From: Chitinophaga pinensis
GTDB taxonomy: Bacteria > Bacteroidota > Bacteroidia > CAMBQF01
Assembly (NCBI GenBank): GCA_945869825.1
Contig: CAMBQF010000006.1
Coordinates: 1 to 42,129, forward strand
Direction: 5' to 3'
DNA length: 42,129 nucleotides
The number at the start of each line of letters is the position of its first letter. Within the stretch, counting starts at the first letter, position 1. This document shows positions 1 through 35,256 of the stretch, one piece after another. A program made the translations under genes and the position numbers. The notes beneath the pieces were generated by a model that worked only from the letters and a program-made list of their open reading frames with translations, did not search any database and was not told the DNA's origin.

Positions 1-3000
1 GACGATGAACTGTTGGTGTATTTACCGCCAATAGATACTGTTGCACTGTTTGCATTTACTGTTGAGGCACTAGAGCTATAATCTCCAACTATTGCAATGG
101 TAGCACCACTGTAGGTAACGGTAGATGATGAAGCATTACTCCAGTTTCCACCTACATTAACAACGCCACCTGCTGTTGTAACGGTTGCACCCGTGTTGGC
201 TACGTTGCCGGTAAGCTCACTTGTACCACCTGCGTGTGTATAAGTAGAGCCGCTACCGTTGGTCAAAGTATTCAGGCTGTCTGTACCTGATGATATATTA
301 TACAAGCCATTGTTGGTTATATTTAAACCAGCAGCTCTAAAGTTACCACCTTGTATATCAATTCCTGCAGTAGAAGCAATGGTAGTTACAGCTAAAGAGT
401 TATCAATAAACAAATCTGTAGATACCTGGAACGTACCATTAGTTGGTATAAGGTTACCATACACAATAGTGTTGGTTTGAATATCAACTGTTGGGGCCGA
501 TGTTGTGCCTTTATCAACTCTAAGGTTATAGAATGTTTGTGGGTCGGTAGCGCCTGTAAGGTTAACGTTGCCTGTACCTTTAAAGGTAACCGTGCTTACG
601 TTAAAGTTTATAGAGCCGCTATTGTTCCAAGTGCCCCAAACATCTAAGTTTCTGTTTGTTGAAATTGTCATTATACCACCGGTATTGATATTAATAGTGC
701 GGCAAACAGCACCATTAGAAGCAATAACAGGATCAAAATCAGTGATAGCACCTGTTGGTATAGTAATATCTGTTGATGATGTTGGAATACCACCACCTAA
801 ACACCAGTTACCACCATCAAACCAGTTGTCGCTTAACGTACCTTTCCAGCTTCCGCTTGTAACAACGTATACACTAACATCAGTACCGTTATTCATATCA
901 AGAGCTGTACAAGGGTTACGGCTTGCAATAATTTTATATGTATTATCAACAAACAGAGCACCCGTGCTGAAACTTAAGTTACCTCCGTTGCCTGTTTGAG
1001 TACCGCCAACGTTTACGTTATCAGTAGTGCTAAACAACTGATAAACAGTACCACTTTCAGACGATTGTAAAGTAACCGTAGCAGAAGAGCCTGAACATAC
1101 TGTGGTTGGGGCACTTACTGTTCTTTGTATTGGGCCAGTTACAACTGTAACTGCCAGGCTATTACTTACAGTGTTACCACAAATATTGGTAGCAGTTGCT
1201 ACATAATTACCTGTAGAAGCACTTGAAGTAATAAACGAAACAGGGTCCTGAACAGAATTGCTGTAGCTATTAGGTCCGGTCCAGCTCCATGATGTTGCTC
1301 CGGTGCCACCAGTGGCTTCTAAATCCAATGGTTGGGTTTCGCATAGGTTTGTAGATGTTGCCGTTGCAGTTACTGCAGATGGCACACCCGCTGTTATCGC
1401 AAGTGCTAATGTATTACTTGTAGTATTACCACATACGTTTGTTGCAGTAGCTGTATAGTTACCACCAGATGCTACAACAGTATTAAACGATGCAGGATCT
1501 TGGTTAGTATTAACATAACCATTAGGGCCACTCCAGCTCCACGATGTAGCGCCAGTGCCACCCGTTGCATTTAAATCAAACGAGCTACCTGCACACAAAG
1601 CTAATGTGTTTGCAGAGGCTGTTACTGCTGATGGAACTGATGCGGTAAGAGCTAATGTAATGGCGCTGCTTGAAGTGCTGCCGCAAACGTTGGTTGCGGT
1701 AGCAGTATAGTTGCCCGCCGATGTTGCAGATGTGCTGAATGCAGCCGGGTTTTGGTTACTGTTGGTATAAGAGTCTGGACCGCTCCAGCTCCACGATGTT
1801 GCACCTGTGCCACCCGAAGCATTTAAATCAAACGATTGACCAGTACATAGTGATAATGAGTTAGCCGATGCTGTAACAGCGCTAGGGGAAGATAATGCAA
1901 GGGCTAAAGCTAACGCGCTGCTTGAAGTACTTCCGCAGGCGTTGGTTGCTGTAGCTGTATAGTTACCTGCCGATGCCGCAACTGTACCGAACGATGCAGG
2001 GTCCTGGTTTGAGTCAGTGTAAGAGTTAGGGCCACTCCAGCTCCAAGATGTTGCGCCTGCGCCACCGCTGGCATTCAAGTCGAACGCGCTGCCAACACAT
2101 AATAACAATGAGTTTGCCGATGCTGTAACCGCACCTGGGGCCGCCGCTGATAATCCTAATGTTAATGTATTACTTGTTGTTGTACCGCAAACATTGGTTG
2201 CCGATACTGAGTAGTTACCAGCCGATGCTGACACTGTTGTAAATGCCGCAGGGTCTTGGTTAGTATTTGTGTAGCTGTTAGGGCCAGTCCAGCTCCAAGA
2301 AGCTGCTCCTGAACCACCCGTGGCATTTAAATTGAATGAGTTGCCAACGCACAATGCCAATGAGTTTGCCGATGCAGTAACTGCCGATGGTGCAGAAGTT
2401 ACCACTGTAACAGTAACAGCAACATCGTTATTCATATTAACATCAGCACATGGGGCAACAGAGGCAACAATTTTAAACGTTTTGGTTGCAGTTAATGAAC
2501 CGGTAGTAAACGTTAAGTTAGAGCCAGTACCTGCCTGGGTTGCGCTAAAGGTATTATCAGTAACGTTCCAAAGTTGATAGGTAACACCATTATCAGAACC
2601 TGTTAAAACTATGTTAGAAGCATCGCCTGTACATATAGTTGGGGTTGATGCTGTAACAGTTCTTTGTGTTGGCGTTGCAATAACTATAAGTGTAACCGGA
2701 GTTGCATCTGCAGCTGCAGCACAACCTGTTACAGTTTGTGTAACCGTGCTGCGGTAGTACCATGTACCTGCAGCAAGGTTTGTTGGCGTGGCATACGTTG
2801 TAGATGATGTGTTTTGAACAGAAGTCCAAGGGCCACCTAATGATGCTGCACGCTCAAAATTTATTGTTGAAATAGTTCCATTACCACCAATTGCAGATCC
2901 TGTAATGTTTGTTGTACTGCCAAAACAAATAGTAGGTTCAAAAACAGCTGTTTCTGAAGTTGGGTCGGCAATTATACTCCATGTAGCCAGGGTTTGATAA

Positions 3001-6000
3001 GAAACAGCAGTGCCATCGCAACCATTGCCGCAGCTATTTGCACGGCGACCTTGTACAATAATACTAGAGCCAGCCGCATTAGGCACAGTGATACCAGCGG
3101 CTGATGTATAGGCGGCCCATGTGCTTCCACCATCTGTTGAAACACGATAATCATCGGTACAGCCTGCACCACCTGAACCTGCTGTAATTGTAGCAGAAAC
3201 CGAACCTCCGATACAAACATCAGTATTAATTACTGGTGAAGACGAAGCTAATGTTGGTGCTACCGGGTCTGCAACTATGGTAAATGTTGTATACCTTGGG
3301 GTGCTCCAACCGCAGCACTGGTTAAGTTCGCTATAGTATATATTATAAGTACCCGGAGATAAAGAGGCTACGTTAATTGTTGGGTTAGCAAGCGATGACG
3401 TTAAACCGCTAATTGGCGTGCGTGCATCAGTATTAAATATCCTCCAATCGTAATTTACTGGCGATGTACCACCCGAGCTTGCAAGCGTAACACTACCTCC
3501 TTGACATATAGTTGTAGTTGAAGCTCCGTTAACTGTAATAGTAGGTAAAGCACGCGTAGTTGGGCTTAGTATTAAAAAAGCTGGCACGTTTGCAGGACCT
3601 GTAAAATCATATCGTGTAGGTGCAGATACCGTACTGGTAGTATTTACCACAACCGGACTGCTTGCCGTTGATTGTCCCGGCGTACCGTTGGCCTGCAAAT
3701 CAACCAAGTTTAAACCACTAGGTAATGTCCAGGTACCAGAAGCTTTTGTTAATGAAATTTGAGAGTTTTGGCAAAAAGCGAATGTATTATAAGGAATAGT
3801 CATAACCGGGCTATTAGCAATAGTGCCTGATTGTGTTGTAGCTCCTGTGCCTACAGTATACATAGAAGCTGTAGCACCCGCTGCTCCGCTTTGACCAGTA
3901 CCACCCCTTGCACCATTGCCACCAGCGCCACCTGCTCCTGCAGTACGCCTGTCGCTATTACAGCTTCCCTGAGCTGGACCTGCAGCACCACCGGCACCGC
4001 CATTGCCTCCCACACCGCCACTGCCACCAGTACCACCGCTACCTGCATTAGCATTTGTATTTGTAAATGTACCAGAAGTAGCATTTGAATTTCTGTAAAT
4101 ACCAAAAGAACCGCCACCGCCACGGCCACCAAAACCGCCCTGACCGCCGCCGCCGCCTTGGCCGCCACCGCCGCCGCCGTTGCCTGGATTGTCGTTATAA
4201 TAACACGCCCAACCTGTATCTTCTCCTCTGGTGCCGCCGCCACCGCCGCCGCCTGCGCCTGAATTACCATGGCCGCCCTGCGCACCTACGCTATTTTGAG
4301 CGTAGTATGCACCGTATGAGTTATTAGCTGCCGCAGTACCACCATTTATGCCAGAAGTGCTCACGGTTGTTGTTGTAAAACCGCCGCCACCACTGCCTGC
4401 AGCAGAGTTACCTCCAGTACCGCAACTACCTCCACCGCTGCCTTGGGCACCGCCAGCGCCGCCAGTTGAACCAACACCAGCAAAACCTTGTTGACCAGCT
4501 ATAGCTACACCATCTCTTCTAGATGAACCACCGCACCCCCCTCTGCCGCCACTATTACCCCAGCTATTGGTGTTTAAGGTATTACTAGTTAAACAAAAAT
4601 TATAATTATCTCCGCAAGAGCCTGATGAAGTTTGGCCACCACCACAACCCCCTCTCCTACAAGCATCACCATTACAATCGCCGTCTGATTCTCCTTGTCG
4701 CCCTGCAGAACCAGTATGGCCCGTTGCTCCAGTGGCACCTGCTTGACCAACACCACCATTGCCCGCTGTTATATTACAACGAACTACATTATATCCACTT
4801 GTATTATTAAGCCAAAGGCCATAATTAGAACAGCCACGGCCGCTGCCATCAGGCGTCATTCCGTTAGCTGTAGTAGTGGTAATATTTAAATCTATTAAAG
4901 ACCAACCTGTTGTACCATCAGCTTTAAAACCCATTCTATGGCAAAAACCACTTACACTTTCAGAGCCACTGCACGTAATTGTACTGGGTGTATTGTTGGC
5001 TTTAACCCACAAACCTCCTGTATTTGTATAACCTCCTTCAATAACAACATTTGTAGGGATTGAAACTACACTTGGTTCAGTTATACTTCCTGCAACCCTA
5101 ATATGACGTCTAGTACCCAATTGTGTTATTGCGTAAGATATTGTAGCATATGGATTATTAGGACCACCGCTTAATGCATTGTCTGTACCACCATTTGCAA
5201 CATAAGCAAAATCGCAATTTGGCGAACCTACGGCTATAGCACAGGTTACGGTTGCTGGCAAACTGCAACCATAATTATAGGTTAAGTTTACATTATAATT
5301 ACCTGCAGCTGTTGGGGCTGTCCATGCAAATGGAGTGCCTGAGCCTGTTGTAGGAGAGCCTGCAGAAGCAGACCATGTTAACGAGGTGTAATTAACAGCC
5401 GCACCCGCATTAGGGCTAAGTAAAACAGGCAGGGTAATAGCCTGACCTGGAAAAACGGTAGAGCCGCAAACACCCGATGGGATAGCCGGAGCAGCATCGC
5501 CGGTAGAATAAGTATAACCACTAACGTTAGAGTATGGACTTGATGTATTAAAAGCATAAGTAACCACGTAATTAGCCGATGTTGTGGTGTAGCTGCCAAA
5601 GTCGTAACCACAGTTTGATGTTGCCTGCAAACGATAGTAGCGGGTGCCTGATATTTGACCAGGGGTAAAGCTTAATGTAGTAGCCGTATTAACACTGCCA
5701 CCATTATTGTTGGCGCCTGTAACATCAACCCACGGGCCTGTTGGGCTGTTTGATATTTGCCAACGGTACCAACGGGCCAACGAACGTCCGTTAGCATCTG
5801 TGCTAATAGTAGCGCTTAATACGCTTGGCGCAGCGCCATTACAACGCATTTGGTTAGTTGGGGTTTCGCCACTAATGCCCGGGCTAAATAAGTAGCTCCA
5901 ATACAAACTCCAGTTTACCTGATAATAACCAATATCACAAGTGCGGCCGCCGGTAAAAAAGTTCCACTGGCACGGGGGGGTTGCCGAAGCTGTAGCTGTG

Positions 6001-6365
6001 CCGTTAACCGTAGCGTAAGAGCCACAATTATTATCATCGCCAAAGCATATACCGCCATCAGACTCAAAACCATTGAGTTGCATTGACGTAGTTGAATTGT
6101 ACGCAACAGATGTGGTAGTGTAAATACCAAAGTTGCTGTTATTGGCAAAACCGCAAACTTCGTCGCGGTCATGATTCCAATCGTAGTTGGTGCCATTTAC
6201 AAACAGCCTGACACGCCAACGGGGATCGGGGTTGCCATTACAATCATCGCAGCCGGGTTCGTCGTAGTAAACATTGTCTACGTCAACATCTAACGCGATG
6301 TTTTGACCAAAGCTTTGAAAAGAAAACAAGAACAAAGCGATAATGACAGGTAAAAATTTTCTCAT
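1..6365 (-). CDS. Giant secreted glycine-rich / Ig-repeat surface protein, C-terminus cut off by window edge
   Basis: The frame stays open from an ATG at 6365-6363 down to base 1, about 2,121 residues with no stop, so the 3' end lies outside the window. Residues 1-21 form a signal peptide ending in SFGQ. A Cys-containing N-terminal region follows. At about 383-530 is a parallel beta-helix-like lead-in (CDFAYVANGG..., then VVIEGGY, then GYNVVRCNITAGNGG). About 530-835 is a glycine-rich block, mostly GG and GGX, with scattered Cys. Ig-like modules follow, including five 84-residue repeats (each with SWSW(T/S)GP and an NxCG near its end) flanked on both sides by a different Ig-like module (QRTV...). 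After them comes a W-F-D-G-G-N-W segment of the kind seen in Bacteroidota adhesins, then a repetitive beta-rich stretch up to the edge. I infer a T9SS-exported adhesin or matrix protein; the expected sorting domain is not visible. No enzymatic motif was seen. Confidence 0.9.
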   Translation of the reverse strand, partial: MRKFLPVIIALFLFSFQSFGQNIALDVDVDNVYYDEPGCDDCNGNPDPRWRVRLFVNGTNYDWNHDRDEVCGFANNSNFGIYTTTSVAYNSTTSMQLNGFESDGGICFGDDNNCGSYATVNGTATASATPPCQWNFFTGGRTCDIGYYQVNWSLYWSYLFSPGISGETPTNQMRCNGAAPSVLSATISTDANGRSLARWYRWQISNSPTGPWVDVTGANNNGGSVNTATTLSFTPGQISGTRYYRLQATSNCGYDFGSYTTTSANYVVTYAFNTSSPYSNVSGYTYSTGDAAPAIPSGVCGSTVFPGQAITLPVLLSPNAGAAVNYTSLTWSASAGSPTTGSGTPFAWTAPTAAGNYNVNLTYNYGCSLPATVTCAIAVGSPNCDFAYVANGGTDNALSGGPNNPYATISYAITQLGTRRHIRVAGSITEPSVVSIPTNVVIEGGYTNTGGLWVKANNTPSTITCSGSESVSGFCHRMGFKADGTTGWSLIDLNITTTTANGMTPDGSGRGCSNYGLWLNNTSGYNVVRCNITAGNGGVGQAGATGATGHTGSAGRQGESDGDCNGDACRRGGCGGGQTSSGSCGDNYNFCLTSNTLNTNSWGNSGGRGGCGGSSRRDGVAIAGQQGFAGVGSTGGAGGAQGSGGGSCGTGGNSAAGSGGGGFTTTTVSTSGINGGTAAANNSYGAYYAQNSVGAQGGHGNSGAGGGGGGGTRGEDTGWACYYNDNPGNGGGGGGQGGGGGQGGFGGRGGGGSFGIYRNSNATSGTFTNTNANAGSGGTGGSGGVGGNGGAGGAAGPAQGSCNSDRRTAGAGGAGGNGARGGTGQSGAAGATASMYTVGTGATTQSGTIANSPVMTIPYNTFAFCQNSQISLTKASGTWTLPSGLNLVDLQANGTPGQSTASSPVVVNTTSTVSAPTRYDFTGPANVPAFLILSPTTRALPTITVNGASTTTICQGGSVTLASSGGTSPVNYDWRIFNTDARTPISGLTSSLANPTINVASLSPGTYNIYYSELNQCCGWSTPRYTTFTIVADPVAPTLASSSPVINTDVCIGGSVSATITAGSGGAGCTDDYRVSTDGGSTWAAYTSAAGITVPNAAGSSIIVQGRRANSCGNGCDGTAVSYQTLATWSIIADPTSETAVFEPTICFGSTTNITGSAIGGNGTISTINFERAASLGGPWTSVQNTSSTTYATPTNLAAGTWYYRSTVTQTVTGCAAAADATPVTLIVIATPTQRTVTASTPTICTGDASNIVLTGSDNGVTYQLWNVTDNTFSATQAGTGSNLTFTTGSLTATKTFKIVASVAPCADVNMNNDVAVTVTVVTSAPSAVTASANSLALCVGNSFNLNATGGSGAASWSWTGPNSYTNTNQDPAAFTTVSASAGNYSVSATNVCGTTTSNTLTLGLSAAAPGAVTASANSLLLCVGSAFDLNASGGAGATSWSWSGPNSYTDSNQDPASFGTVAASAGNYTATATNACGSTSSSALALALALSSPSAVTASANSLSLCTGQSFDLNASGGTGATSWSWSGPDSYTNSNQNPAAFSTSATSAGNYTATATNVCGSTSSSAITLALTASVPSAVTASANTLALCAGSSFDLNATGGTGATSWSWSGPNGYVNTNQDPASFNTVVASGGNYTATATNVCGNTTSNTLALAITAGVPSAVTATATSTNLCETQPLDLEATGGTGATSWSWTGPNSYSNSVQDPVSFITSSASTGNYVATATNICGNTVSNSLAVTVVTGPIQRTVSAPTTVCSGSSATVTLQSSESGTVYQLFSTTDNVNVGGTQTGNGGNLSFSTGALFVDNTYKIIASRNPCTALDMNNGTDVSVYVVTSGSWKGTLSDNWFDGGNWCLGGGIPTSSTDITIPTGAITDFDPVIASNGAVCRTININTGGIMTISTNRNLDVWGTWNNSGSINFNVSTVTFKGTGNVNLTGATDPQTFYNLRVDKGTTSAPTVDIQTNTIVYGNLIPTNGTFQVSTDLFIDNSLAVTTIASTAGIDIQGGNFRAAGLNITNNGLYNISSGTDSLNTLTNGSGSTYTHAGGTSELTGNVANTGATVTTAGGVVNVGGNWSNASSSTVTYSGATIAIVGDYSSSASTVNANSATVSIGGKYTNSSS
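1141..2400 (-). repeat. Five tandem 252-bp (84-aa) Ig-like repeats
   Basis: The plus-strand word agctcc, encoding part of the SWSW(T/S)GP motif, recurs at 1283, 1535, 1787, 2039 and 2291, exactly 252 bp apart each time. Translated on the minus strand, each unit runs from PSAVTA(S/T)A through a Cys, SWSW(T/S)GP, a Q-(D/N)-P and an N-(V/I/A)-C-G. The copies have diverged in synonymous and some coding positions, yet no indel has broken the period. The outer boundaries are approximate. Confidence 0.9.
3835..4790 (-). repeat. Glycine-rich (GGX) low-complexity block of the giant protein
   Basis: On the minus strand this encodes about 310 residues dominated by Gly, with Ser, Asn, Ala and Gln between. 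There are several Gly runs and an aromatic break, GGGGSFGIY, that also occurs in the two other Gly-rich proteins of the window (SFGIF and AFCLY). Cys residues occur in short CGG and GCGG settings. It is inserted directly after the beta-helix-like lead-in. Confidence 0.85.
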
Positions 6366-6712
6366 GGTACTATATATAATAATTTTTACTAAAATAATCA
6401 AATTGGCTAACCACATAAGACCATAATCGTTTAAAATCTTACATAGCAATTTTACTGCAAAGTACAAAAAATAACTGAGACCTCCAAAAAATTAAACAAT
6501 GGGACAAAAAACTTTACAGTAAGTTAATGTGTTTCAGTTGGGTTGAGGTGAAATTAATTGCAAAACAGCGCCTTGCTAACTGTAGAAATATACGGTACAT
6601 AATCCGTAACCCAAACCAATTTTTATTAAATACTTACATAGCAAAATAGGGGATGCTACACAAAAAACGAAATGCCTGAAATAAAAATTTGGAAAACTAA
6701 ATCTACAATACG
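6366..6712. other. 347-bp intergenic region; candidate promoter and a 12-bp direct repeat
   Basis: No ORF of note lies here. It is the 5' region of the giant minus-strand gene. A near-consensus -7 element reading TACTTTG on the minus strand lies at 6464-6458, one base shorter than TAnnTTTG and about 92 bp upstream of the ATG. The 12-mer CTTACATAGCAA occurs twice, at 6438-6449 and 6633-6644. I see no convincing terminator for the upstream leucine-rich-repeat gene. Confidence 0.4.
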
Positions 6713-7627
6713 TTAGTGTATTTTAGAAGAATCGAAGACAAAATTAATAGTTGGATAACGTTTTGCTAAATTTTCCCAATATATAGCATCCGCAACCGTA
6801 TCAAAACATGCCAACATTTGCAAAGAGCGTATTTTACCCAAATCTAAATTAAATGTGGCAATAGGGTTGCGGCCAATGCCCAGGTAATTTATTGCCGGCA
6901 GGGTTTCTACACCAACAGGCAGCTGAGTAAACTTATTGGAGATTAATGACAGGTAACTTAGATTTTTCAACTCAAACAATTCTTTTGGCAAATCAGCTAT
7001 CTGGTTTCCTCTAACACATAAAGTAGTAAGGTTTTTCAGCTGACCAACGCCGGCAGGCAGCGTTGTTAATGTACCATTCCACAAACGCAGGGTTTTCAAA
7101 TTCTGCATTTTCCATAAATTATCTGGTATGGCACTAAGGTTGCTGTAAACCAACTCGTTAAGCTTTTTCCATTTTATAATTTTAGGGCTTAGTACATCTA
7201 GCTTATTGTTATCAGCCCTAAAAACTTCAATGTTTTTTAATTTAAACAACACATTAATATTAGAAATAGCATTGTGGCTAATGTAGATTTTTTTAAGCTT
7301 TTTAAGCTTTTTAAGCTTATTGGGTAATTTTACAATGTTGTTATGAGAAAGGTCTAACTCTTCTAAATTTTTAAACTTAAAAACCTCTTTAGGAATTTCT
7401 GTTAACACCTTGTACTTTAAGTCAAGTTTTAAAATGGTGTCTTTACCGGGCAAAGCATCGGCCAGGTTTTCAAACTTACCACGCTTTGCATTAACATCAA
7501 CCATCAACTTATCAAACGCTTTCCGACTTGCTATTGTGTCTTTAGCAGGGTGCGGGTCAAATTCCGGCGTTTGCCCATAAACAATACGAGATAAAAATAA
7601 TATAATTACTAATAAAAGAGTTTTCAT
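6713..7627 (-). CDS. Secreted leucine-rich-repeat protein
   Basis: 304 residues. A signal peptide (about residues 1-19, ending VYGQ) is followed by a short linker. Roughly nine LRR units run over about residues 64-280, recognised by L-x-x-L-x-L-x-x-N-x-(I/L) spacing, for example LEELDLSHNNI and LTTLCVRGNQI. The short LPx-LxxLKxL pattern resembles bacterial LRRs that bind proteins or peptidoglycan. There is no enzymatic domain, no lipobox and no sorting domain, so it should stay periplasmic or leave by an unseen route. The third LRR carries a 9-bp microrepeat with AAGCTT at 7295, 7304 and 7313, encoding the KKLKKLKK run. The neighbour at 7780 is divergent, so the two share a 152-bp upstream region. 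Confidence 0.85.
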   Translation of the reverse strand: MKTLLLVIILFLSRIVYGQTPEFDPHPAKDTIASRKAFDKLMVDVNAKRGKFENLADALPGKDTILKLDLKYKVLTEIPKEVFKFKNLEELDLSHNNIVKLPNKLKKLKKLKKIYISHNAISNINVLFKLKNIEVFRADNNKLDVLSPKIIKWKKLNELVYSNLSAIPDNLWKMQNLKTLRLWNGTLTTLPAGVGQLKNLTTLCVRGNQIADLPKELFELKNLSYLSLISNKFTQLPVGVETLPAINYLGIGRNPIATFNLDLGKIRSLQMLACFDTVADAIYWENLAKRYPTINFVFDSSKIH

Positions 7628-7665
7628 ATTTATTATTTTGTTGTACTCAAACTAAACGACTCCTT

Positions 7666-7683
7666 TTGAGTTTTTAAACTCAA
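7666..7683. promoter_or_regulatory. Perfect inverted repeat between divergent genes
   Basis: TTGAGTTT, a 2-base spacer (TT), then AAACTCAA. It lies 39 bp upstream of the LRR start (minus) and about 100 bp upstream of the first peroxidase (plus). The size and position would suit an operator, but it could also be a small RNA hairpin. No regulator is identified. Confidence 0.35.
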
Positions 7684-7745
7684 CAATTGTGACATTCCAT
7701 GCATAAAAATACGAATAATTCTAACTTCAATTGAAAAATTTACAG

Positions 7746-7753
7746 TAACTTTA
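7746..7753 (+). promoter_or_regulatory. Candidate -7 box for the peroxidase pair
   Basis: TAACTTTA is one base off the Bacteroidota consensus TAnnTTTG and lies 26 bp before the ATG at 7780. No clear -33 TTG was seen. Confidence 0.35.
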
Positions 7754-7779
7754 ACATAAATTAAAATTTATCCTAAGTA

Positions 7780-8910
7780 ATGATGTTTTGTAAAGTTATT
7801 AATAAATTAAAAATCATCATATTGCTATCTGTAGTATATATATCGCTTGCTTTTATTGGTATTCCAGCAAATGATAATCCAAAGCCATATATTTTAAATT
7901 ACGACACAACGCTACTTGAAAAACCGAATATACCTGCGAACAATCCTCTAACAGTAGAAGGTGTTGAGCTAGGGCGATTGTTATTTTATGATACATTATT
8001 ATCTGGAAACAATACTCAATCTTGTGCAAGTTGTCATAAGCAAGAATTCTATTTTAGTGACGGAAAAACGACAGCAATTGGGAGCCAAGGCCATATTGGC
8101 AAAAGAAACTCTATGGCATTAGTTAATTTAGCATTTAAAAACAGCTTCTTTTGGGATGGAAGAGTTATCAGCCTTGAATCTCTCATAAAATTTCCTTTAA
8201 CAGATTCAATAGAAATGCAGCAAGACACAATTTTATTAATTCAAGAAATTCAAAATCACCCATATTATCCTGATTTATTTAAAAAAGCATTTGGGAACAA
8301 GCAAATAGAATTTAACGACGTTTCTAAAGCTATTGCCCAATTCCTCAGAATTATATATACTAAAGGTACGAGTTTTAATTTCAAAAATGAAAATGCAAGT
8401 AAATCCTTTAAGTTTAAGAGTGCAAAAAACAGTAAAGAAAACGACAGCCTCTTAGCAATTGTAAATGAGATGCACCCTCGTTTTTCTTTAATGTGTACAA
8501 GATGCCATAGAGGGGCTGTTGGCAGGGGAGATTTTTTTGCTGATATTAATATTGATACTAATAAAATTACAGGCAGGTACCTAATTACTAAAAATCTTGC
8601 TGATACGGGTAAGTTTATTATACCTCCTTTAATTAATGTTTTGCATACGGCACCCTATATGCACGACGGCCGATTTAAAACTTTACGAGAAGTATTAGAC
8701 CATTACAGTAATCATATTGGGTTATTAAAAAAACTAAATAGTAGTATTTTGAGCGACTCTATTGAAAATACAATAACTGAAAATGATAAAAAAAATATAG
8801 AGCTTTTTTTTGAGATTTTTGATGATGAGAGTATAAAAACGAATAAAAAATATTCAAATCCTTTTGCAAGTCCTAACTTCAAATGGACTGATTATCCAGA
8901 CTTTAAATAA
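7780..8910 (+). CDS. Di-heme cytochrome c peroxidase family protein (CCP/MauG type), copy 1
   Basis: 376 residues. The family reduces H2O2 in the periplasm using electrons from small c-type cytochromes, or, in MauG-like members, oxidises other substrates. An N-terminal hydrophobic segment at about 10-27 serves as signal or anchor. Two c-heme sites are visible, CASCH at 82-86 and CTRCH at 239-243. The family signature APYMHDGRF at 291-299 supplies a Met candidate axial ligand (Met294), and FFWDGR lies at about 123-128. Translation may begin at either ATG of the adjacent pair, 7780 or 7783. The stop overlaps the next gene's start (TAATG), so the two are coupled. Both genes are visibly more AT-rich than the surrounding genes, so they may have been acquired. 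Peroxidase versus MauG-like activity is not settled by the sequence. Confidence 0.9.
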   Translation: MMFCKVINKLKIIILLSVVYISLAFIGIPANDNPKPYILNYDTTLLEKPNIPANNPLTVEGVELGRLLFYDTLLSGNNTQSCASCHKQEFYFSDGKTTAIGSQGHIGKRNSMALVNLAFKNSFFWDGRVISLESLIKFPLTDSIEMQQDTILLIQEIQNHPYYPDLFKKAFGNKQIEFNDVSKAIAQFLRIIYTKGTSFNFKNENASKSFKFKSAKNSKENDSLLAIVNEMHPRFSLMCTRCHRGAVGRGDFFADINIDTNKITGRYLITKNLADTGKFIIPPLINVLHTAPYMHDGRFKTLREVLDHYSNHIGLLKKLNSSILSDSIENTITENDKKNIELFFEIFDDESIKTNKKYSNPFASPNFKWTDYPDFK

Positions 8911-10010
8911 TGAAAAAGATTAATAATAATTTTTATAAAGCAGTTACATTATCGCTATGTGTTTTTATTTTGCTATCATTTACCTACAAAAACATTGCTG
9001 ATGAGCCCAGTCCGTATAACATAATATATGACACTACCTACTTACCTAAACCTAATATTCCTGAAGACAATCCCTTAACAATTGAGGGTGTTGCACTTGG
9101 CCGTTTATTATTTTATGACTCTTTATTATCAGTAAATAAATCTCAATCTTGCGCATCATGTCATAAACAAAAATTTTTTTTTACTGATGCTGGCAAGAGT
9201 GTTAGTAATGGCGCTTTAAAAATACCTGGCGACTTTAACACTATGCCCCTTGCTAACCTGGCATGGCAAACAGAGTTTTTTTGGGATGGCAGGGTAAAAT
9301 CTCTTGAAGAGCAGGTTTTAGAGCCAATACAAAAACACAATGAAATGGCAAAAGACTTGCGTTTGCTAACTTATCAACTATCAAAACATAAATACTACTC
9401 GGGATATTTTAAAAAAGCTTTTCCAAAAGATAAAAACCCAGTAAACTCAAATAATATTAGCAAAGCTTTAGCACAATTTGTAAGAACAATATACGTGTCA
9501 CCAAAGCCTTTTAAAAATGGTGGATTTGGAGATTTTGAAGGAGATAAGATGCCTGACAGTGTAATGAAGACAATACAATACAAGGCGTTTGTAAACTTAT
9601 CAGATATGTGTTCAGACTGCCACTCTAGCGAATTTTATGGTGGAAAAAATGATGAACTTGCTACAAACGGAACTACATATTTTGATAATGACCCAACAAA
9701 CGACAAATTAAAGTTTAAAGCCCCCTCTTTAATAAACCTTGCTTACACCGCGCCCTATATGCACGATGGGCGTTTTAAAACATTGTATGAGGTAATAGAC
9801 CATTATGACCAACATATTACTGAACTAGACACCTATAACCCTGATATTGTGCAGAATAAAATTAAAAACAAATTCTCAAAAGCCGACAAGACAGAAATGG
9901 TTAATTTTTTATTAAGCCTAAAAGACACCACAATTTTAACTGACACGCGTTTTTCCAATCCGTTTACGAGTAAAAAATTTAATTGGGCAGATTACCCATA
10001 CTTTAAATAA
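8910..10010 (+). CDS. Di-heme cytochrome c peroxidase family protein (CCP/MauG type), copy 2
   Basis: 366 residues, a paralogue of the preceding gene and collinear with it over nearly the whole length. An N-terminal hydrophobic signal or anchor at about 10-26 precedes the mature part. Heme sites are CASCH at 81-85 and CSDCH at 234-238, and the APYMHDGRF signature lies at 281-289. The segment LEEQVLEPI at about 132-140 matches the family better than the equivalent LESLIKFPL in copy 1. Between the heme sites the two copies differ most just before the second heme, where copy 1 has a Lys/Ser/Asn-rich insert. It starts on the last base of the upstream stop codon. Tandem CCP-like pairs may divide labour, for example different redox partners; this is inference. 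Confidence 0.9.
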   Translation: MKKINNNFYKAVTLSLCVFILLSFTYKNIADEPSPYNIIYDTTYLPKPNIPEDNPLTIEGVALGRLLFYDSLLSVNKSQSCASCHKQKFFFTDAGKSVSNGALKIPGDFNTMPLANLAWQTEFFWDGRVKSLEEQVLEPIQKHNEMAKDLRLLTYQLSKHKYYSGYFKKAFPKDKNPVNSNNISKALAQFVRTIYVSPKPFKNGGFGDFEGDKMPDSVMKTIQYKAFVNLSDMCSDCHSSEFYGGKNDELATNGTTYFDNDPTNDKLKFKAPSLINLAYTAPYMHDGRFKTLYEVIDHYDQHITELDTYNPDIVQNKIKNKFSKADKTEMVNFLLSLKDTTILTDTRFSNPFTSKKFNWADYPYFK

Positions 10011-10033
10011 AATTCCTTCTCTTTAATTTCTAC

Positions 10034-10069
10034 TTATACTATAACCTTTTGCAGATGTGGGTAGTATAA
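10034..10069 (+). terminator. Weak hairpin after the peroxidase pair
   Basis: TTATACTA at 10034-10041 pairs with TAGTATAA at 10062-10069 across a 20-base loop. The stem is AT-rich and no T-tract follows directly, so termination here is only a possibility. Confidence 0.25.
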
Positions 10070-10125
10070 TGTGTAAAACCTTCGCGTAGCGACATACCCA
10101 TACCCAACCTAAAAACCTGATAGCT

Positions 10126-11268
10126 ATGTCACTACGCATTATTTGCGGGCTGCTTTTATGCGCCCTGTTAATGGTTTCGTGCAACAACGATGATGTTGAC
10201 ACATCTGCCCCAGCCGGCCCTTATATTGCAAGTGCTGCACCAATACTACAAAACCCCGATACCCATACGGTTATTATCAAAACCGACTCGCTGGCCAAAA
10301 AGGTGCGCCGCTATGTTAAGCCCAAAGACGTTACCGTTAAAGAGGCTTTAAAAGATATGCGCTTTAACCCGCAGGCAGTAAAACTATTTGTATCGTTAGC
10401 AGACAAAACCGGAGGGCAAACCTATTTTGCAAAAAACAGCAAGCTGGTGGCACAAACTATTGTATCTATATTAGATAAACATGCAACAGAAATGACTGAT
10501 GTGGTTTTGCTGATAGATAAAACCGGGAGTATGGATGATGATATTGAAAACGTAAAAAAGAGTGCTTCGCGCATTATATCAACCCTGAAAAAATTTAAAA
10601 ATATACAATTGGGGTGGGGTGCTTATGGCGATAAAAACGACGACCCCGCAAACTGGTTCCAGCTAAATAAGCTATCGGCCAATTTGGACGAGAGCCTTGA
10701 TAAAATTAATGGCCTTTATACAGGTGGTGGTGGCGATTTGCCCGAATCGGTAAATGATGCTATCTATAAAACTGTTGACGAGATGAACTGGAGGCCCGAT
10801 GCGCGGAAAATGATACTGGTGATAGGCGATGCACAATCGCTGGAACCACCTTTGGCCGACAGGAGTATGGGTGAGGTTATTAAAAAGTGTATTTCATCGG
10901 CGGTGCATGTAAACCTATACCCGGTTGTTATAAGTACCGAAGATATTATGGGCGACCTGCACGATGATAGCCGCACATTAACAGAACCAGCAGAAGGTGC
11001 CAGGCTAACAACGCCTGTTAAAACCGGAAATATTATAACCCGTACCTACCCCAACCCAACTACCGACAATGTTTACATTGATTTTACAGGTACCGGGCCA
11101 TATGTGGTTGATGTAAAGTCGTTGCTGGGCAAAACCATCGCATCAGAAGAAATAACAACCAACCGCTATACCTGCAACCTGCTAAATGTACCCGCAGGCA
11201 TATACCTAATTACAGTAACCGATAAAAGTAGTGGTAAAATGGAGGTAAGGCAGGTGGTAAAAAAGTAA
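10126..11268 (+). CDS. VWA-domain lipoprotein with a T9SS type A sorting domain
   Basis: 380 residues. The N-terminus is a lipoprotein signal with lipobox LMVSC (lipidated Cys19), followed by acidic NNDD, which resembles the Bacteroidota lipoprotein surface-export signal. A von Willebrand factor A domain spans about 125-285. Its metal-site motif is DKTGS at 131-135 in place of the usual DxSxS, and GDAQS forms the later strand. Residues ~308-380 are a type A T9SS sorting domain beginning TYPNPTTDN, with the usual GIYLITV and a basic C-terminus. A lipid anchor together with a sorting domain is odd, because each would normally attach the protein on its own. VWA proteins of this kind mostly mediate metal-dependent protein binding; the ligand here is unknown. 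It is terminated by a strong hairpin at 11295-11332. Confidence 0.85.
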   Translation: MSLRIICGLLLCALLMVSCNNDDVDTSAPAGPYIASAAPILQNPDTHTVIIKTDSLAKKVRRYVKPKDVTVKEALKDMRFNPQAVKLFVSLADKTGGQTYFAKNSKLVAQTIVSILDKHATEMTDVVLLIDKTGSMDDDIENVKKSASRIISTLKKFKNIQLGWGAYGDKNDDPANWFQLNKLSANLDESLDKINGLYTGGGGDLPESVNDAIYKTVDEMNWRPDARKMILVIGDAQSLEPPLADRSMGEVIKKCISSAVHVNLYPVVISTEDIMGDLHDDSRTLTEPAEGARLTTPVKTGNIITRTYPNPTTDNVYIDFTGTGPYVVDVKSLLGKTIASEEITTNRYTCNLLNVPAGIYLITVTDKSSGKMEVRQVVKK

Positions 11269-11294
11269 GTTCAACAAACACTAATGGCTAACTA

Positions 11295-11332
11295 AACACA
11301 AAAAGCCGCCCAAAAGGGCGGCTTTTTGTGTT
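11295..11332. terminator. Strong, possibly bidirectional intrinsic terminator
   Basis: A perfect 17-bp stem (11295-11311 with 11316-11332) encloses an AAAA loop. The GC core is GCCGCCC/GGGCGGC, with a T-run on the plus strand and a matching one on the minus strand. It ends the VWA gene and may also stop transcription arriving from the anti-sigma gene. Confidence 0.9.
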
Positions 11333-11406
11333 ATAAAAACCTAAACTACATGAACTACTCATTAACAAATTCTGCAAACTATGCAGAGCCAACTTACATT
11401 CTCATA

Positions 11407-11432
11407 GTATTAGTCGACCAAGGGGCTAATAC
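11407..11432. terminator. Hairpin downstream of the anti-sigma-like gene
   Basis: A 9-bp stem with one G-T pair (GTATTAGTC with GGCTAATAC) lies just past the stop of the minus-strand gene at 11445. There is no T-tract, so it may act as an RNA-stabilising hairpin instead of a terminator. A smaller perfect stem, TCTGCA/TGCAGA, lies at 11371-11387. Confidence 0.3.
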
Positions 11433-11444
11433 CTTACAAAACAG

Positions 11445-11732
11445 TTACATATTATTTAATTTGTTTTCAACCAACTGCTGAATGCGGATTTTAGCATCGT
11501 CGGCAAGGCGCATTTTAGAAAAATCAGTAATATCCATCAGCGATGATTTTCTAATCAGCTCATTTAAAAACACACTTTGCTCATTGTAGCGGCGGCAGCC
11601 ATTACAAACAACAAGATGGAAACGCAACGCCAGTTTTTCATACACATCAAGCTTACGCTCCTGTTTCTTTTCAATCAGAACGGTGGCTTCGCGGCATGCC
11701 ATTATAAATACGTTAAAAATCTTTTTAATCAC
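11445..11732 (-). CDS. Small zinc-finger anti-sigma-like protein
   Basis: 95 residues, 6 bp after an ECF sigma gene on the same strand. Cys13 together with His39-x3-Cys43-x2-Cys46 matches the zinc-binding anti-sigma (ZAS) pattern of HxxxCxxC with an upstream ligand. The remainder is helical and charged. It has no transmembrane segment and no periplasmic part, unlike the FecR-type anti-sigma factors usual in this phylum, so any signal must be sensed in the cytoplasm (redox or zinc are typical of soluble ZAS proteins). The role is inferred from motif plus gene order. It could instead be a zinc-binding accessory protein without anti-sigma activity. Confidence 0.75.
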   Translation of the reverse strand: MIKKIFNVFIMACREATVLIEKKQERKLDVYEKLALRFHLVVCNGCRRYNEQSVFLNELIRKSSLMDITDFSKMRLADDAKIRIQQLVENKLNNM

Positions 11733-11738
11733 TTTATA

Positions 11739-12326
11739 CTATAATTTAAACCAGGTTTTTTCTAAACAAGTACGCAGCATAAGCTTTGCACGGTGCATTA
11801 TTACCCAGTAGTTAGACGCTGATACATTTAATTCCTTACAAATATCATCGCTATCCTTTTCTTCCAAAAATTTAAGTGTAATAGCAGTATGCCAGTTTGC
11901 CGGCAGTTTACCTACGCATTTTTGCATAGCCAGCTGAAAGTCTTTATCATCAAGTATGTTACCCTCATCGGCACTCCATTGCTTTGGTTTTGCCTGCTTA
12001 GTCCACTCTCCGCCATTATCAAAAAACAAGTCAAGAAAAGAGCGGCTTTCATCGCCCTGCATAAAGCTATTGTCAGAAACCTCGTAGCGTGTAGATGCCT
12101 TACGGTAATGGTCGGCAATTTTGTTTTTAAGAATAGAGAACAACCATGTACGTTCTGATGAGTTACCCTTGAAATTTTTTATGCCGTTTAAGGCCGACAG
12201 GAAAGTTTCCTGAACAAAGTCTTCGGCAAGCTCGGTACTGCTGCTTTTAGAAAGGGCATATCCATATAAATCATCCGCATACTTATCCGTCCAGTTCTGC
12301 GGATTTAAAGCCTGTTGTCCTACCAT
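11739..12326 (-). CDS. ECF-family RNA polymerase sigma factor
   Basis: 195 residues. Region 2 is recognisable at about 14-85, with LAEDFVQETFLSAL and a later RTWLFSILKNKIADHYRK that matches the ECF -10 recognition helix. Region 4 at about 130-190 contains LPANWHTAITLKF and a helix-turn-helix (DDICKELNVSASNYWVIMHRAK). The linker of about 45 residues is longer than average and rich in charged and Trp residues. The anti-sigma-like gene follows after 6 bp. The gene is divergent from the Gly-rich surface protein at 12457, with 130 bp between the two starts, so it may control that gene, but no shared promoter motif proves this. Identification as an ECF sigma factor is firm. Confidence 0.92.
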   Translation of the reverse strand: MVGQQALNPQNWTDKYADDLYGYALSKSSSTELAEDFVQETFLSALNGIKNFKGNSSERTWLFSILKNKIADHYRKASTRYEVSDNSFMQGDESRSFLDLFFDNGGEWTKQAKPKQWSADEGNILDDKDFQLAMQKCVGKLPANWHTAITLKFLEEKDSDDICKELNVSASNYWVIMHRAKLMLRTCLEKTWFKL

Positions 12327-12456: not shown

Positions 12457-15400
12457 ATGCTTATGTTATTGGCCCGACGTATACTATATAGGTTATATTT
12501 ACCGCTTATTATATTTCTGTTTTCTAGCTTTGTAGCCAAAGGGCAGCAATGCAACATTATATATATAACCCCCACCGGTAATGGTACAGGCACCAAAGCT
12601 AGCCCTGCAAGTATTGCCGGCGGTATTGCGCTGGCAGGGCCAGGCAGCCAGCTATGGCTTGCAGTGGGTAACTACACCATTGATACCCCAATTAATTTAT
12701 TAGATAACGTAACACTTGAAGGCGGTTTTGACCCTGCCAATAATTGGACAAAGGTAAATACCGCGCAAACTATAATAAACCGCACCAATGCCAACCCGCA
12801 AACCAACCCCGAGCGTTTAGTGGCAGTATCGTGCATAAATATTACAGGCTTTACCATACAGGATGTAACAATAAAAACAGCCAATGCGCTAGGCAATGGG
12901 GTAACTACTTATGGGATTTACTTAAGTGGCTGTTCTAATTTTAATATTAGCCGCTGTAATGTTACAGGTGGCAATGGCTCTAACGGCCTGCCCGGAACCC
13001 CGGGAACTAATGGTATTAATGGGGGCAATGGCACAGCCGGTCAAAACGGTAGCGAAGACGGCGGTGGAAACACCAACGGTGGGACTGGCGCATCAGGATC
13101 TTACCCTGGCAGCAGCAATGGTGGCAATGGTGGCAATGGTGGCGCTCGCGGCACATACTCATTTCCGGCAGGAGGCAATGCTCCGGGCGGCACAGCAGGT
13201 TTAAACGGCGGCGGCACAGGCAATGGCACAGGTGGCGTTGCAGGCGTGGGCAACTGTAACTTAATTTCTATAGGGTGCGATGCCGGCCCGGCCCAGTGGG
13301 GTCAACCAGGCACCGATGGGTTAGATGGCGCCAATGGTGCCAACGGTACATCGGGTACCCCATCTTTTGCAGGCGGATTTTTTGTAAACGGCACAGGCCA
13401 AAACGGCGTTGCAGGCCAAAACGGCGGCGGTGGTGGCGGCGGTGGCGGCGGCGGAGCCCAAGGCTGTATACCATTTGGCTTTTTTGTGCCTAACAATAAC
13501 GGATCGGGCGCAGGTGGCGGTGGTGGTGGCGAAGGCGGCCAGGGCGGTGCCGGAGCCTTAGGTGGTACAGGCGGCGGCGGCTCTTTTGGCATTTTTGCCT
13601 GGGCAAACGGAGCCAGCGGACGAGTAAAAGACACTTATACATTTTCAGGCATACCAGGCCAGGGCGGCCTTGGTGGCGCGCCAGGCGGCTTAGGTGGCTT
13701 TGGCGGCAATGGCGGCAACGGCGGCGGACCAGGTTGCGATATTGGCCGCGGGGGCAATGGTGGATCTGGTGGAGATGGCGGAGATGGAGGCAATGGAGGA
13801 AACGGTAGTTTAGGCCTTAGCCTACCCATTTTTGAAGACCCTAATGCTACAGCATTGATACAATCGGACATGCGCACACCAGTAGAACCAGTTATTAATG
13901 TGCTAAATACAGGCTGTACGTTTTCTGATATTGAATTTTCTACCACAGCAAATGGTATAGTACAATGGTTTTTTGATGGAGGAACAATTCCATTGCAGGC
14001 TGTTGGCAACAATGTTACCGTGCAATACACTACCCAAGGGCGCCATACGGTAACTATGGTCCTTAATGGTGTGCCTTATATTTATACCGATTTTATTGGT
14101 ATCTTCTCTAATGGTATACCTTACCTGCCTTCCATTATTCCATCTAACGACACTGTTTGTTTAGGTGGCACGTTAGACTTTACCAGCTCTTTTGCAGGCA
14201 CTAACTACGAGTGGTGGCTTGAGGGCACCACCCCAACAAATTTTAACGGACCACAGTACCAAACCCTAAACGGTGTGCAGTTTAACACCTTAGGCGATTA
14301 CCGGATTTTGCTGCAAACAACGTCGCCCTGCTGCGGACGTTCTACCATAGATACAATTTTAATACACGTTGTGCCTTATGTAAATGCTGATGTTTTTGTT
14401 TTTGCATCATCAACCAGCATTTGTGCTGGCACACAGGTAAACTTTGGCGCATCGCCTGTAAATGCTGGCAGCAACCCTGTTTACACATGGACAGTTAATG
14501 GCGCAACCGTTGGCACCAACAGTAATACCTTCAGCACATCAACCCTAAACAATGGCGATATTGTTGCTGTAAGTATGGGCAGCAACCTGCTTTGCGTAAA
14601 CAACAACCCGGCAGCATCTGTGCCTATTGTAATGACAGTTAACCAGCCGCCAGTGCTAAACTGCAGCTCTATTGGGCAGTTTTTAGGTGCCCCTACCCAG
14701 TTTTCGGTTAACCCAGTAGGCTCTCAACCATTTACCTATGCATGGAATTTTGGCGATGGTGGTATATCAGACCTGCAAAACCCGCCACATACTTATGGCT
14801 CTACAGGCAACTACACCGCAACAGTAACAGTTACCGATGCCAATGGCTGCGAGGCTACCTGCGATGTGCAGGTTACTATTAGCATAGCCCCGCAGGTTAC
14901 AGCCCTGTTTACAGGCAATATTACTGCTATTGGCTGCGGCACAGGCTCTGTTAGCTTTACCGACCAAAGCACCGGCGGCGTTATACAATGGACATGGGAC
15001 TTTGGCGATGGGGTTACCGATGCCAACCAAAACCCTACCCATAACTATACCGCTCCAGGGTATTATGATGTAACCTTAATTGCATCTAACGGTGTATTGG
15101 CCGATACATTGGTGCTTCCCAACTTTATATATATACCACCGCCACCCGTAGCTGAGTTTACCGCTTTAGACAGTATTGAGTGTGAGCCCTATATTTTTAG
15201 GTTCTTAGACCAATCGCTAGGTGGTGTAACTGATTGGTTGTGGGATTTTGGCGATGGTAACACATCGGTACTGCAAAACCCATCGCACGAATATGCGGCA
15301 CCAGGTAGTTACAACGTTACCCTTACCGTAACAACGGCAGATAACTGCACGGCCACGCTTACCACACCTAACTTTATACAATACCTTGAACAGCCCGAAG

Positions 15401-16161
15401 CAGGTTTCTTTACCTTTGACACGTTAATGTGCACAGGCGAGGCTATATCTATCACTGATACCTCTGTTGCAGCTAATAAATGGCTGTATTATTTTGGCGA
15501 TGGCACACCTGTAGATGTAAACCAAAACCCGATACATGTATACACTGAGCCGGGCATTTATACTGTTACCCAAATAGTAGAAAACTCCTCGGGCTGTAGA
15601 GATACTATGATTGCTACGCAGTACATAGAGATTGTACCTTACCCTGAAGCAAATTTTAATGCCGATACCTTTAAACTACAATTGCCTGACACCACGGTGC
15701 AGTTTTTTAACCTAAGCCAGTATTACGATTCACTGGTATGGGTACTGGGCAATGGCGACACCACATGGGTTGATAACCCCGTAGGTGTTTACCAGGATTC
15801 TGGCATTTATGTTATTACCCTTATTGTTAGCAACAGCATTGGATGTGTAGATACTTTGCAAATACCACTGCAGGTTATAGAGCAGGAATCATTCTTTGTT
15901 CCAAACTCATTTACCCCTGACGATGACTTTATAAATGACAACTTTAGTGTGTTTGGCAGGGGAATTGTTAGTGGAGAGATGTATATATACGACAGATGGG
16001 GCCAGCCCGTGTTTACTACCCCCGACCTGTTTACAGGTTGGGATGGTACAACCAAAGACGGGAAGGATGCCATGATTGGCGTATATGTATATGACATTAA
16101 GATAACGTGGTTTACAGGCCGGACGTTTGAAAAGCGTGGCACCGTAACACTTATCAGGTAA
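12457..16161 (+). CDS. Gly-rich beta-helix / PKD surface protein with a T9SS type B sorting domain
   Basis: 1234 residues. The signal peptide covers about 1-29 (hydrophobic core, then AKGQQ). Residues 30-170 resemble a parallel beta-helix lead-in (CNIIYVTPTGNGTGT..., LEGGF, GCSNFNISRC). Residues 170-452 are a Gly-rich block containing an 11-Gly run and the aromatic break GGGGSFGIF. Ig-like segments follow to about 740. Five PKD domains then run over about 745-1140, four with the FGDG signature and the last with GNGD. The end, about 1145-1234, is a type B T9SS domain (gliding-motility-associated C-terminal type) with SFTPDDDFINDNF and YDRWG. The first ~470 residues are collinear with the protein at 18882. 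The start could also be the ATG at 12463. It is probably exported to the surface as an adhesin or matrix protein; no catalytic motif was seen. The lipoprotein gene at 16173 follows after 11 bp. Confidence 0.92.
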   Translation: MLMLLARRILYRLYLPLIIFLFSSFVAKGQQCNIIYITPTGNGTGTKASPASIAGGIALAGPGSQLWLAVGNYTIDTPINLLDNVTLEGGFDPANNWTKVNTAQTIINRTNANPQTNPERLVAVSCINITGFTIQDVTIKTANALGNGVTTYGIYLSGCSNFNISRCNVTGGNGSNGLPGTPGTNGINGGNGTAGQNGSEDGGGNTNGGTGASGSYPGSSNGGNGGNGGARGTYSFPAGGNAPGGTAGLNGGGTGNGTGGVAGVGNCNLISIGCDAGPAQWGQPGTDGLDGANGANGTSGTPSFAGGFFVNGTGQNGVAGQNGGGGGGGGGGGAQGCIPFGFFVPNNNGSGAGGGGGGEGGQGGAGALGGTGGGGSFGIFAWANGASGRVKDTYTFSGIPGQGGLGGAPGGLGGFGGNGGNGGGPGCDIGRGGNGGSGGDGGDGGNGGNGSLGLSLPIFEDPNATALIQSDMRTPVEPVINVLNTGCTFSDIEFSTTANGIVQWFFDGGTIPLQAVGNNVTVQYTTQGRHTVTMVLNGVPYIYTDFIGIFSNGIPYLPSIIPSNDTVCLGGTLDFTSSFAGTNYEWWLEGTTPTNFNGPQYQTLNGVQFNTLGDYRILLQTTSPCCGRSTIDTILIHVVPYVNADVFVFASSTSICAGTQVNFGASPVNAGSNPVYTWTVNGATVGTNSNTFSTSTLNNGDIVAVSMGSNLLCVNNNPAASVPIVMTVNQPPVLNCSSIGQFLGAPTQFSVNPVGSQPFTYAWNFGDGGISDLQNPPHTYGSTGNYTATVTVTDANGCEATCDVQVTISIAPQVTALFTGNITAIGCGTGSVSFTDQSTGGVIQWTWDFGDGVTDANQNPTHNYTAPGYYDVTLIASNGVLADTLVLPNFIYIPPPPVAEFTALDSIECEPYIFRFLDQSLGGVTDWLWDFGDGNTSVLQNPSHEYAAPGSYNVTLTVTTADNCTATLTTPNFIQYLEQPEAGFFTFDTLMCTGEAISITDTSVAANKWLYYFGDGTPVDVNQNPIHVYTEPGIYTVTQIVENSSGCRDTMIATQYIEIVPYPEANFNADTFKLQLPDTTVQFFNLSQYYDSLVWVLGNGDTTWVDNPVGVYQDSGIYVITLIVSNSIGCVDTLQIPLQVIEQESFFVPNSFTPDDDFINDNFSVFGRGIVSGEMYIYDRWGQPVFTTPDLFTGWDGTTKDGKDAMIGVYVYDIKITWFTGRTFEKRGTVTLIR
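12966..13810 (+). repeat. Gly-rich (GGX) block, copy in the 1234-aa protein
   Basis: About 280 residues of GGNG, GGXG and GTNG type repeats, including an 11-residue poly-Gly run at about 13423-13455. Aromatic and Cys-bearing breaks interrupt it: GTYSFPAGG, SFAGGFFV, and GGGGSFGIF. It matches the block at 19372-20230 in order and in the positions of the breaks. Confidence 0.9.
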
Positions 16162-35013: not shown

Positions 35014-35256
35014 CCTTTTATCGAATAAAACACAAAAACTCACATGGCATATGGGGGTTATTAGAAAACCTGCAAACTGCGTCTGTTTATTGAATTACCG
35101 CAACAAAACCTTGTGTAGGAGCTTATACATACAATTTATGCTTAATTATCGTTGTAGGGAGGGGATAAAAAAAGTTAATATTTTTTAAATTCTCACATAT
35201 TAAATACAATTATTTTGTTATACATTTACTGTCTTAAACAAAATAATTTGAAGCTT
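35014..35256. other. Intergenic leader of the collagen-like operon
   Basis: 243 bp, AT-rich near the start of the next gene, with no ORF, tRNA or strong hairpin. A perfect TAnnTTTG was not found close to the start; TACATTTA (35221-35228) is the nearest form. I see nothing else definite. Confidence 0.3.

Follow-up and report, generated by a model that had tools for sequence, protein, structure and literature searches.

The window (the whole stretch of DNA that was analysed, 42,129 bases) is one entire contig, C6, of a 2.98-Mb genome assembled in 189 contigs (G000). An ORF bearing an array of repeats is located at one end of it, on the minus strand (window 3..6467), and runs off the contig; because the window is the whole contig, this gene is incomplete. 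The encoded protein comprises a large N-terminal head, five Ig-like units bracketed by two modules of another type, and the start of a C-terminal part (Table 1). Neither Rfam families nor tRNAs were found in the window, and a search of NCBIfam gave no match.

Within the order, three genomes representing three species were compared, namely that of the window and two others (G001 and G002) whose public records are titled as metagenome assemblies (MAG). The G002 orthologue (L031; public record JAIXUZ010000080.1) is complete, with 2538 aa and five such units. In G001, frame breaks in the adhesin gene and split matches in several neighbouring genes are read as assembly indels. In locus L030 (its positions 4344-12312), from the complete genome CP096135.1, the adhesin frame is broken into several ORFs and several of its neighbours match in split frames, for which assembly indels are the probable cause.

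Table 1. Coordinates of the features recognized in the array-bearing gene
Feature	Window position	Strand	Remarks
Probable signal peptide	6303..6365	-	by eye: Met at aa 35, hydrophobic stretch
N-terminal head	2673..6365	-	aa 35-1265; 24-45% identical to G002 by block, stalk 72-99%
Outer head	3888..6359	-	aa 37-860; nearer the heads of other families; tree conflict tested for aa 37-600
Beta-helix, first part	4740..5219	-	about aa 417-576; low-confidence head model
Glycine-rich insertion	3888..4724	-	about aa 582-860; 23-48% Gly by 60-aa block
Inner head	2673..3887	-	aa 861-1265; strongly diverged; congener clade not rejected
Flanking module A (PTQRTV...)	2388..2672	-	aa 1266-1360; first residues form the conserved/variable border
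Ig-like unit 1	2136..2387	-	aa 1361-1444
Ig-like unit 2	1884..2135	-	aa 1445-1528
Ig-like unit 3	1632..1883	-	aa 1529-1612; modelled with unit 4, mean pLDDT 95.3
Ig-like unit 4	1380..1631	-	aa 1613-1696; modelled with unit 3
Ig-like unit 5	1128..1379	-	aa 1697-1780
Flanking module B (QRTV...)	849..1127	-	aa 1781-1873; 48% identical to A
C-terminal part, start only	3..848	-	aa 1874-2155; cut by contig end

The repeat array and its bracketing modules

On the minus strand, window 1128-2387 encodes an array of five Ig-like units (aa 1361-1780 of the ORF), each of 84 aa and repeated with a period of exactly 252 bp. An earlier reading made from the sequence alone (hereafter the sequence-only reading) had described five repeats at this period with no drift, and with this both the repeat finder (five copies with spacings of 252, 252, 252 and 252) and the self-identity of the stretch 1001-2600 (0.59 at lag 252, 0.55 at 504, 0.53 at 756 and at most 0.35 at the other lags from 30 to 799) agree. 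The anchor words at 1283, 1535, 1787, 2039 and 2291 are all opened by AGCTCCA and are all in register. The bounds given earlier (1141-2400) lie 13 bp out of phase with the units and are corrected here. Pairwise identity among the window units is 56-73% for DNA and 56-77% for protein, so the array is not near-identical.

A different module does bracket the array on both sides, as had been claimed: modules A and B (QRTV..., ~93 aa) share 48% identity, against 16-28% between either of them and the inner units. In amino-acid terms the inner units are closer to one another than are the two bracketing modules, as expected had they been amplified between older copies. That the bracketing type is the older is also supported by genome G137, from another family, in which the ORF has one QRTV-like module (E 7.6e-15) after a related head; this ORF also has a Por_Secre_tail domain. 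The 84-aa array unit was not detectable in this ORF or in the related ORFs of G011 and G005.

The units match Pfam Ig_2 (PF13895) at 42.5 bits, against a cut-off of 27, and a model of two of them (units 3+4) is an Ig beta-sandwich with a mean pLDDT of 95.3. Among the best 50 rows of a Foldseek search with this model, pieces of the protein GhpA came first and were followed by animal Ig proteins (such as Fc receptors and CEACAMs), so that the identification of the modules as Ig-like is upheld by Pfam, model and fold search together. The C-terminus of L031 is a Por_Secre_tail domain (PF18962; E 5.2e-11, 43.1 bits against a cut-off of 27), and the window gene is cut before that point. The T9SS translocon domain SprA_N is encoded in G000 (E 7.2e-122), and none of 14 control genomes matches it. 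The earlier view of the product as a surface protein is supported by this orthologous tail, which we take to be of type A. According to the abstract of PMC9143113, a tail of type A goes with linkage of the protein to the cell surface. From these sequence features, the array is best read as the putative fixed stalk of a large T9SS surface adhesin.

A step in divergence at the border of head and stalk

Between the window and G002, the products of 19 syntenic genes are 82-99% identical in amino acids, with pS values of 0.10-0.55 (median 0.31). For the stalk the corresponding identities are 94% in flank A, 87-99% in the units (pS 0.19-0.53), 72% in flank B and 82-83% in later parts. The 1,230-aa head, compared in 8 blocks, shows identities of 24-45%, with pN 0.38-0.51 and pS 0.43-0.84, the block with pS 0.43 having only 18 aligned residues. 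When identity is followed in 30-aa steps across the PTQRTV border, it rises sharply from 0.20 to 0.90 between the window and G002; over two such steps it rises from 0.29 through 0.50 to 0.77 between the window and G001, and from 0.12 through 0.57 to 0.81 between G002 and G001. The main blastn match stops at window position 2673 for G002 and 2684 for G001.

On the far side of this variable block, a long blastn match to G002 resumes at position 10038. Between the head and this point lie a leucine-rich-repeat gene and two cytochrome c peroxidase genes, which are 43% and 45% identical to G002, the second being 71-73% identical to G001. As members of the variable block, these three genes (6713, 7780 and 8910) do not count towards the 19-gene baseline; nor do gene 31288, which is cut by the end of a G002 contig, and genes 33720 and beyond, for which there was no match in the compared region.

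The leucine-rich-repeat protein (window 6713-7627) is encoded directly upstream of the adhesin, and neither G001 nor G002 has a match to it in the region compared. Both of the adjacent di-haem cytochrome c peroxidase genes (CCP_MauG; window 7780-10010) are matched by a single gene in the G002 region, and at least two copies, with broken frames, are present in that of G001; copy number therefore seems to vary beside the adhesin head. Head and stalk are alike in third-position GC (0.31 and 0.32), and a compositional sign of transfer was thus not found. The adhesin gene as a whole (window 3-6467), head and stalk included, has a third-position GC of 0.30-0.32, against 0.36-0.47 in the 12 neighbours measured.

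Composition and relatives of the head

Judged by sequence, the head contains an N-terminal domain with several cysteines, Ig-like parts (recognized by eye) and a glycine-rich stretch. Its structural model has a mean pLDDT of 44.3 overall, with 14 of the 16 ten-residue blocks at about aa 417-576 reaching 72-92. The VIA-align matches listed for this helix region (Z 8.4-12.9) include the beta-helices of tailspikes, pectate lyases and the adhesin PfbA. As these alignments extend across the glycine-rich stretch, the latter seems to interrupt the helix. A Foldseek search with the head gave no E value below 0.03. The sole match in a search of PDB sequences with the head was weak and Fn3-like (E 0.007), and GhpA gave no match to the head searched alone at E <= 1.

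Matches to the window head at E <= 1e-15 are present in 67 of 395 genomes of the class, its own genome and congeners included. Outside G000 the best are from G137 (family f28; 49% over residues 2-1226), G011 (f10; 48%) and G005 (f4; 42%). Congener heads rank lower (G001 at 40%, G002 in pieces of 40-44%), and the heads of G393 and G070 likewise rank above that of G001. Over aa 37-300, 301-600 and 601-860, the window head is 62, 50 and 57% identical to that of G137, compared with 37, 38 and 41% to that of G002.

In a tree of 10 heads, drawn from the 67 genomes with a match, the window groups with G137 and G011 (99/98). For aa 37-600 with 861-1130, approximately unbiased (AU) tests reject a clade of window, G002 and G001 (p 0.0035) and one of window and G002 (p 0.0029), and the three-member clade is also rejected in separate parts of the outer head (p 0.0023 for aa 37-300, 0.0049 for aa 410-565 and 0.0008 for aa 301-600). 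Three proteins (from G178, G197 and G082) had no blastp match at E 1e-5 and were not included in the tree; G011b (L167) had such a match, yet was left out, and G393 is absent from the tree of aa 37-300 because its locus starts inside that domain.

The inner head behaves differently. Trees of aa 861-1130 and 861-1267 place the three congeners together with weak support (36/73 and 42/75), and their clade is not rejected; over aa 861-1130 the window is 36% identical to G001 and 33% to G137. Given the lack of tree conflict here, the case for exchange with other families is confined to the outer head, and exchange of the whole head as one piece, which we also considered, is weakened by both trees. 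On these alignments the inner head is far more diverged than the stalk, and it is the outer head that fails to follow the species, as is expected of the variable part of a VARTIG-like recombining surface protein. The G002 head tells less about exchange, as no head from another genus is clearly closer to it than those of its congeners: the best match is congener G001 (41%, E 8.5e-83), followed by G123 of another family (40%, E 7.5e-81). The possibility of a silent donor head within the same genome was not supported, since other places in G000 are only 33-42% identical.

It could be argued that the head has diversified in place under very strong diversifying selection, with no exchange at all. 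The three heads do remain homologous and collinear, each of the three pairs is highly divergent, and for the inner head, where a congener clade is not rejected over aa 861-1267, this reading may hold. As an account of the whole we consider it unlikely, since synonymous sites are near saturation in the head and not in the stalk or the neighbouring genes, and since the outer head of the window is nearer to the heads of other families than to those of its congeners. Moreover, in a control pair of congeners from another genus (G070 and G393), identity is 71-89% per 150-aa block along the compared protein, head included, which indicates that heads of this kind need not diverge fast.

Two more T9SS proteins with CHU_C and Por_Secre_tail domains and PKD-domain stalks are encoded at window 12457-16161 and 18882-22106. 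Their N-terminal regions are related to part of the adhesin head (33%). Their identity to G002 is 94-95%, which gives no sign of exchange in either.

Age and number of the stalk units

Between the window units, pS is 0.60-0.78 and pN 0.14-0.32; synonymous sites are saturated and the protein sequence is under constraint. The synonymous divergence by which the sequence-only reading had proposed to date the amplification thus points to an old event, and recent amplification is ruled out. The 260 homologous units from other loci have a median identity of 37% and a maximum of 52% to the window units, which are closer to one another in protein than to any of these; they are therefore not as diverged as unrelated Ig domains, and the duplications took place within this lineage, but long ago. 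The alignment of two-unit stretches has 68 rows, of which 4 are from the window and 64 are of the 82 listed (100 stretches).

All three genomes compared within the order have exactly five units with 84-aa spacing. A DNA tree built from these 15 units pairs those of the window and G002 by position in five of five cases (support 85/89 at position 4, the others being starred). Grouping with the G001 unit has full support at position 5 and no real support at positions 1 and 4 (71/74 and 54/30), and units 2 and 3 of the window and G002 form a group of their own (99/98), apart from those of G001. Saturated synonymous sites together with the positional pairing of window and G002 indicate that amplification predates the split of these species. 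Concerted evolution of the whole array was rejected, as the units of one genome do not form a clade (p 1.3e-38 for the window, 1.6e-7 for G001).

The sequence-only reading held that such an array changes copy number by recombination and so can tune the reach of the adhesin. Active expansion and contraction now seems very unlikely, and the orthologue comparison proposed along with it speaks directly against it, the count being five in three of three genomes (3 genomes only), with saturated synonymous sites and positional pairing besides. In its favour are the exact period and the range of related arrays elsewhere: among 100 loci (L009-L108, those of the congeners included), 97 ORFs have units, 1 to 18 per ORF, these counts being lower bounds as the loci are cut. 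Spacings in these loci are mostly 76 to 89 aa, however, and equal periods occur there too (in L032 all five spacings are 81, in L047 all four are 89), so that for this domain a near-constant period is commonplace and does not point to recent copying. A degree of turnover or gene conversion is suggested by AU tests on DNA, which reject trees that group the three species by position at unit 2 or at unit 3 (p 0.0086 and 0.0094), but the protein tree does not reject the positional grouping of either unit (p 0.25 and 0.31). What survives of the idea of turnover is thus an old event in the DNA tree that is absent from the protein tree: on the sequences at hand, the central units may once, long ago, have undergone homogenisation or turnover, with the count still five in each genome.

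The window also encodes a collagen-like protein (PF01391; window 35215-37122) with tandem GXY repeats (9 to 105 bp). Copies of its 105-bp array match at 89% and look younger than those of the adhesin array, which makes it the better candidate for copy-number change.

A probable exchange of the outer head on a constant stalk

Our preferred interpretation, to which we would give a probability of roughly two in three, is that the gene encodes a T9SS surface adhesin with a constant five-bead stalk and an exchanged outer head. The five rigid Ig-like beads, held between two older modules, would join the C-terminal anchor region to the N-terminal head, with the C-terminal end presumably facing the cell and the head pointing outward, and the stalk has stayed five units long among the three species sampled. 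For the outer head (aa 37-600 at least, and probably to about aa 860), one or more replacements would have taken place since G000 and G002 diverged, the incoming heads being divergent alleles of the same head family that are found on other stalks in other families of the class. Exchange could proceed by recombination between homologous sequences, within the conserved stalk on one side and close to the conserved gene 10126 on the other, and the head would bind a ligand, likely a surface glycan.

Hidden paralogy, in which two genes that differ in their heads arose by an ancient duplication and different copies were then lost, is highly improbable. Other proteins with similar head domains do occur in each of the three genomes, but paralogy predicts stalks as diverged as the heads, and the window and G002 units are far too similar for this (87-99%); in addition, G002 is syntenic beyond the variable block, the stalk has one match per genome at E <= 1e-50 in all three genomes of the order, and an exchange between head and stalk would still be needed. 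An assembly chimaera at the border is scarcely credible, for even with two metagenome assemblies in the comparison and the genome of the window in 189 contigs, the same border occurs in three separate assemblies, the reading frame continues through it, and genus-typical sequence flanks the head on both sides in the window and G002.

The reading of a constant stalk with an exchanged outer head may be extended, more tentatively, to the heads as a mobile specificity cassette of Bacteroidota, which would move between families onto a lineage-specific stalk of fixed length, the five-unit stalk and gene 10126 serving as homology arms. We regard this extension as possible, although at somewhat less than even odds.

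Comparison with known systems

Tandem beta-sandwich stalks of near-identical repeats in varying number are found in the variable-length repeat adhesins of Gram-positive bacteria (the Rib-domain 'periscope' proteins). Compared with these, the units described here are old (DNA identity 56-73%, pS 0.60-0.78) and their number is the same in three of three genomes.

The nearest solved relative is GhpA of Aureispira sp. CCB-QB1 (PDB 9flp and seven further entries), which shares with the adhesin an extended series of homologous Ig-like domains (14 stretches by phmmer, E 5e-91) and provides the top eight Foldseek matches of the two-unit model (E 7e-10 to 7e-9, 22-26% identity). When the whole protein is searched, the best stretch of the GhpA match extends back to residue 1180. 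According to PMC11205867, GhpA is secreted by the T9SS and forms a heptamer. It differs in size, having 5898 aa against 2538 aa for the complete orthologue L031 with its five units.

For exchange at one end of an Ig-domain protein, the VARTIG module of Thermococcales provides a precedent (PMC8416519): a large Ig-domain protein is described there that is conserved at one end and differs between species at the other, recombination being the apparent cause. As presented there, that system is archaeal and its variable part is a C-terminal Ig domain beside a putative sorting signal, whereas here the N-terminal head varies and the Ig array is constant. The tip of phage tail fibres offers a further parallel, gp38 of PP01/S16 combining, at the distal end of the fibre, a beta-helix with a polyglycine domain and bearing hypervariable loops that set specificity (PMC12892980). 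The likeness to gp38 as so described is an analogy only, with no sequence match or confident structural match and with the glycine-rich part of the adhesin modelled at low confidence; gp38 is absent among the fold-search matches listed, which is uninformative either way. Head exchange in a T9SS adhesin was not found in the open-access literature searched, as judged by titles and the beginnings of abstracts; PMC7323717 concerns transfer of T9SS components and not of their cargo.

The repeat arrays of adhesins are often read as evolving in length, and yet in the species at hand it is the length that is constant and the tip that seems to be exchanged. If this were general, the reach of T9SS adhesins, provided by a fixed stalk, would be separated from their specificity, provided by an exchanged head, and steps in divergence at module borders would offer a way to find binding cassettes. 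Were the cassette reading true, the cell would be able to alter what is bound without altering its reach.
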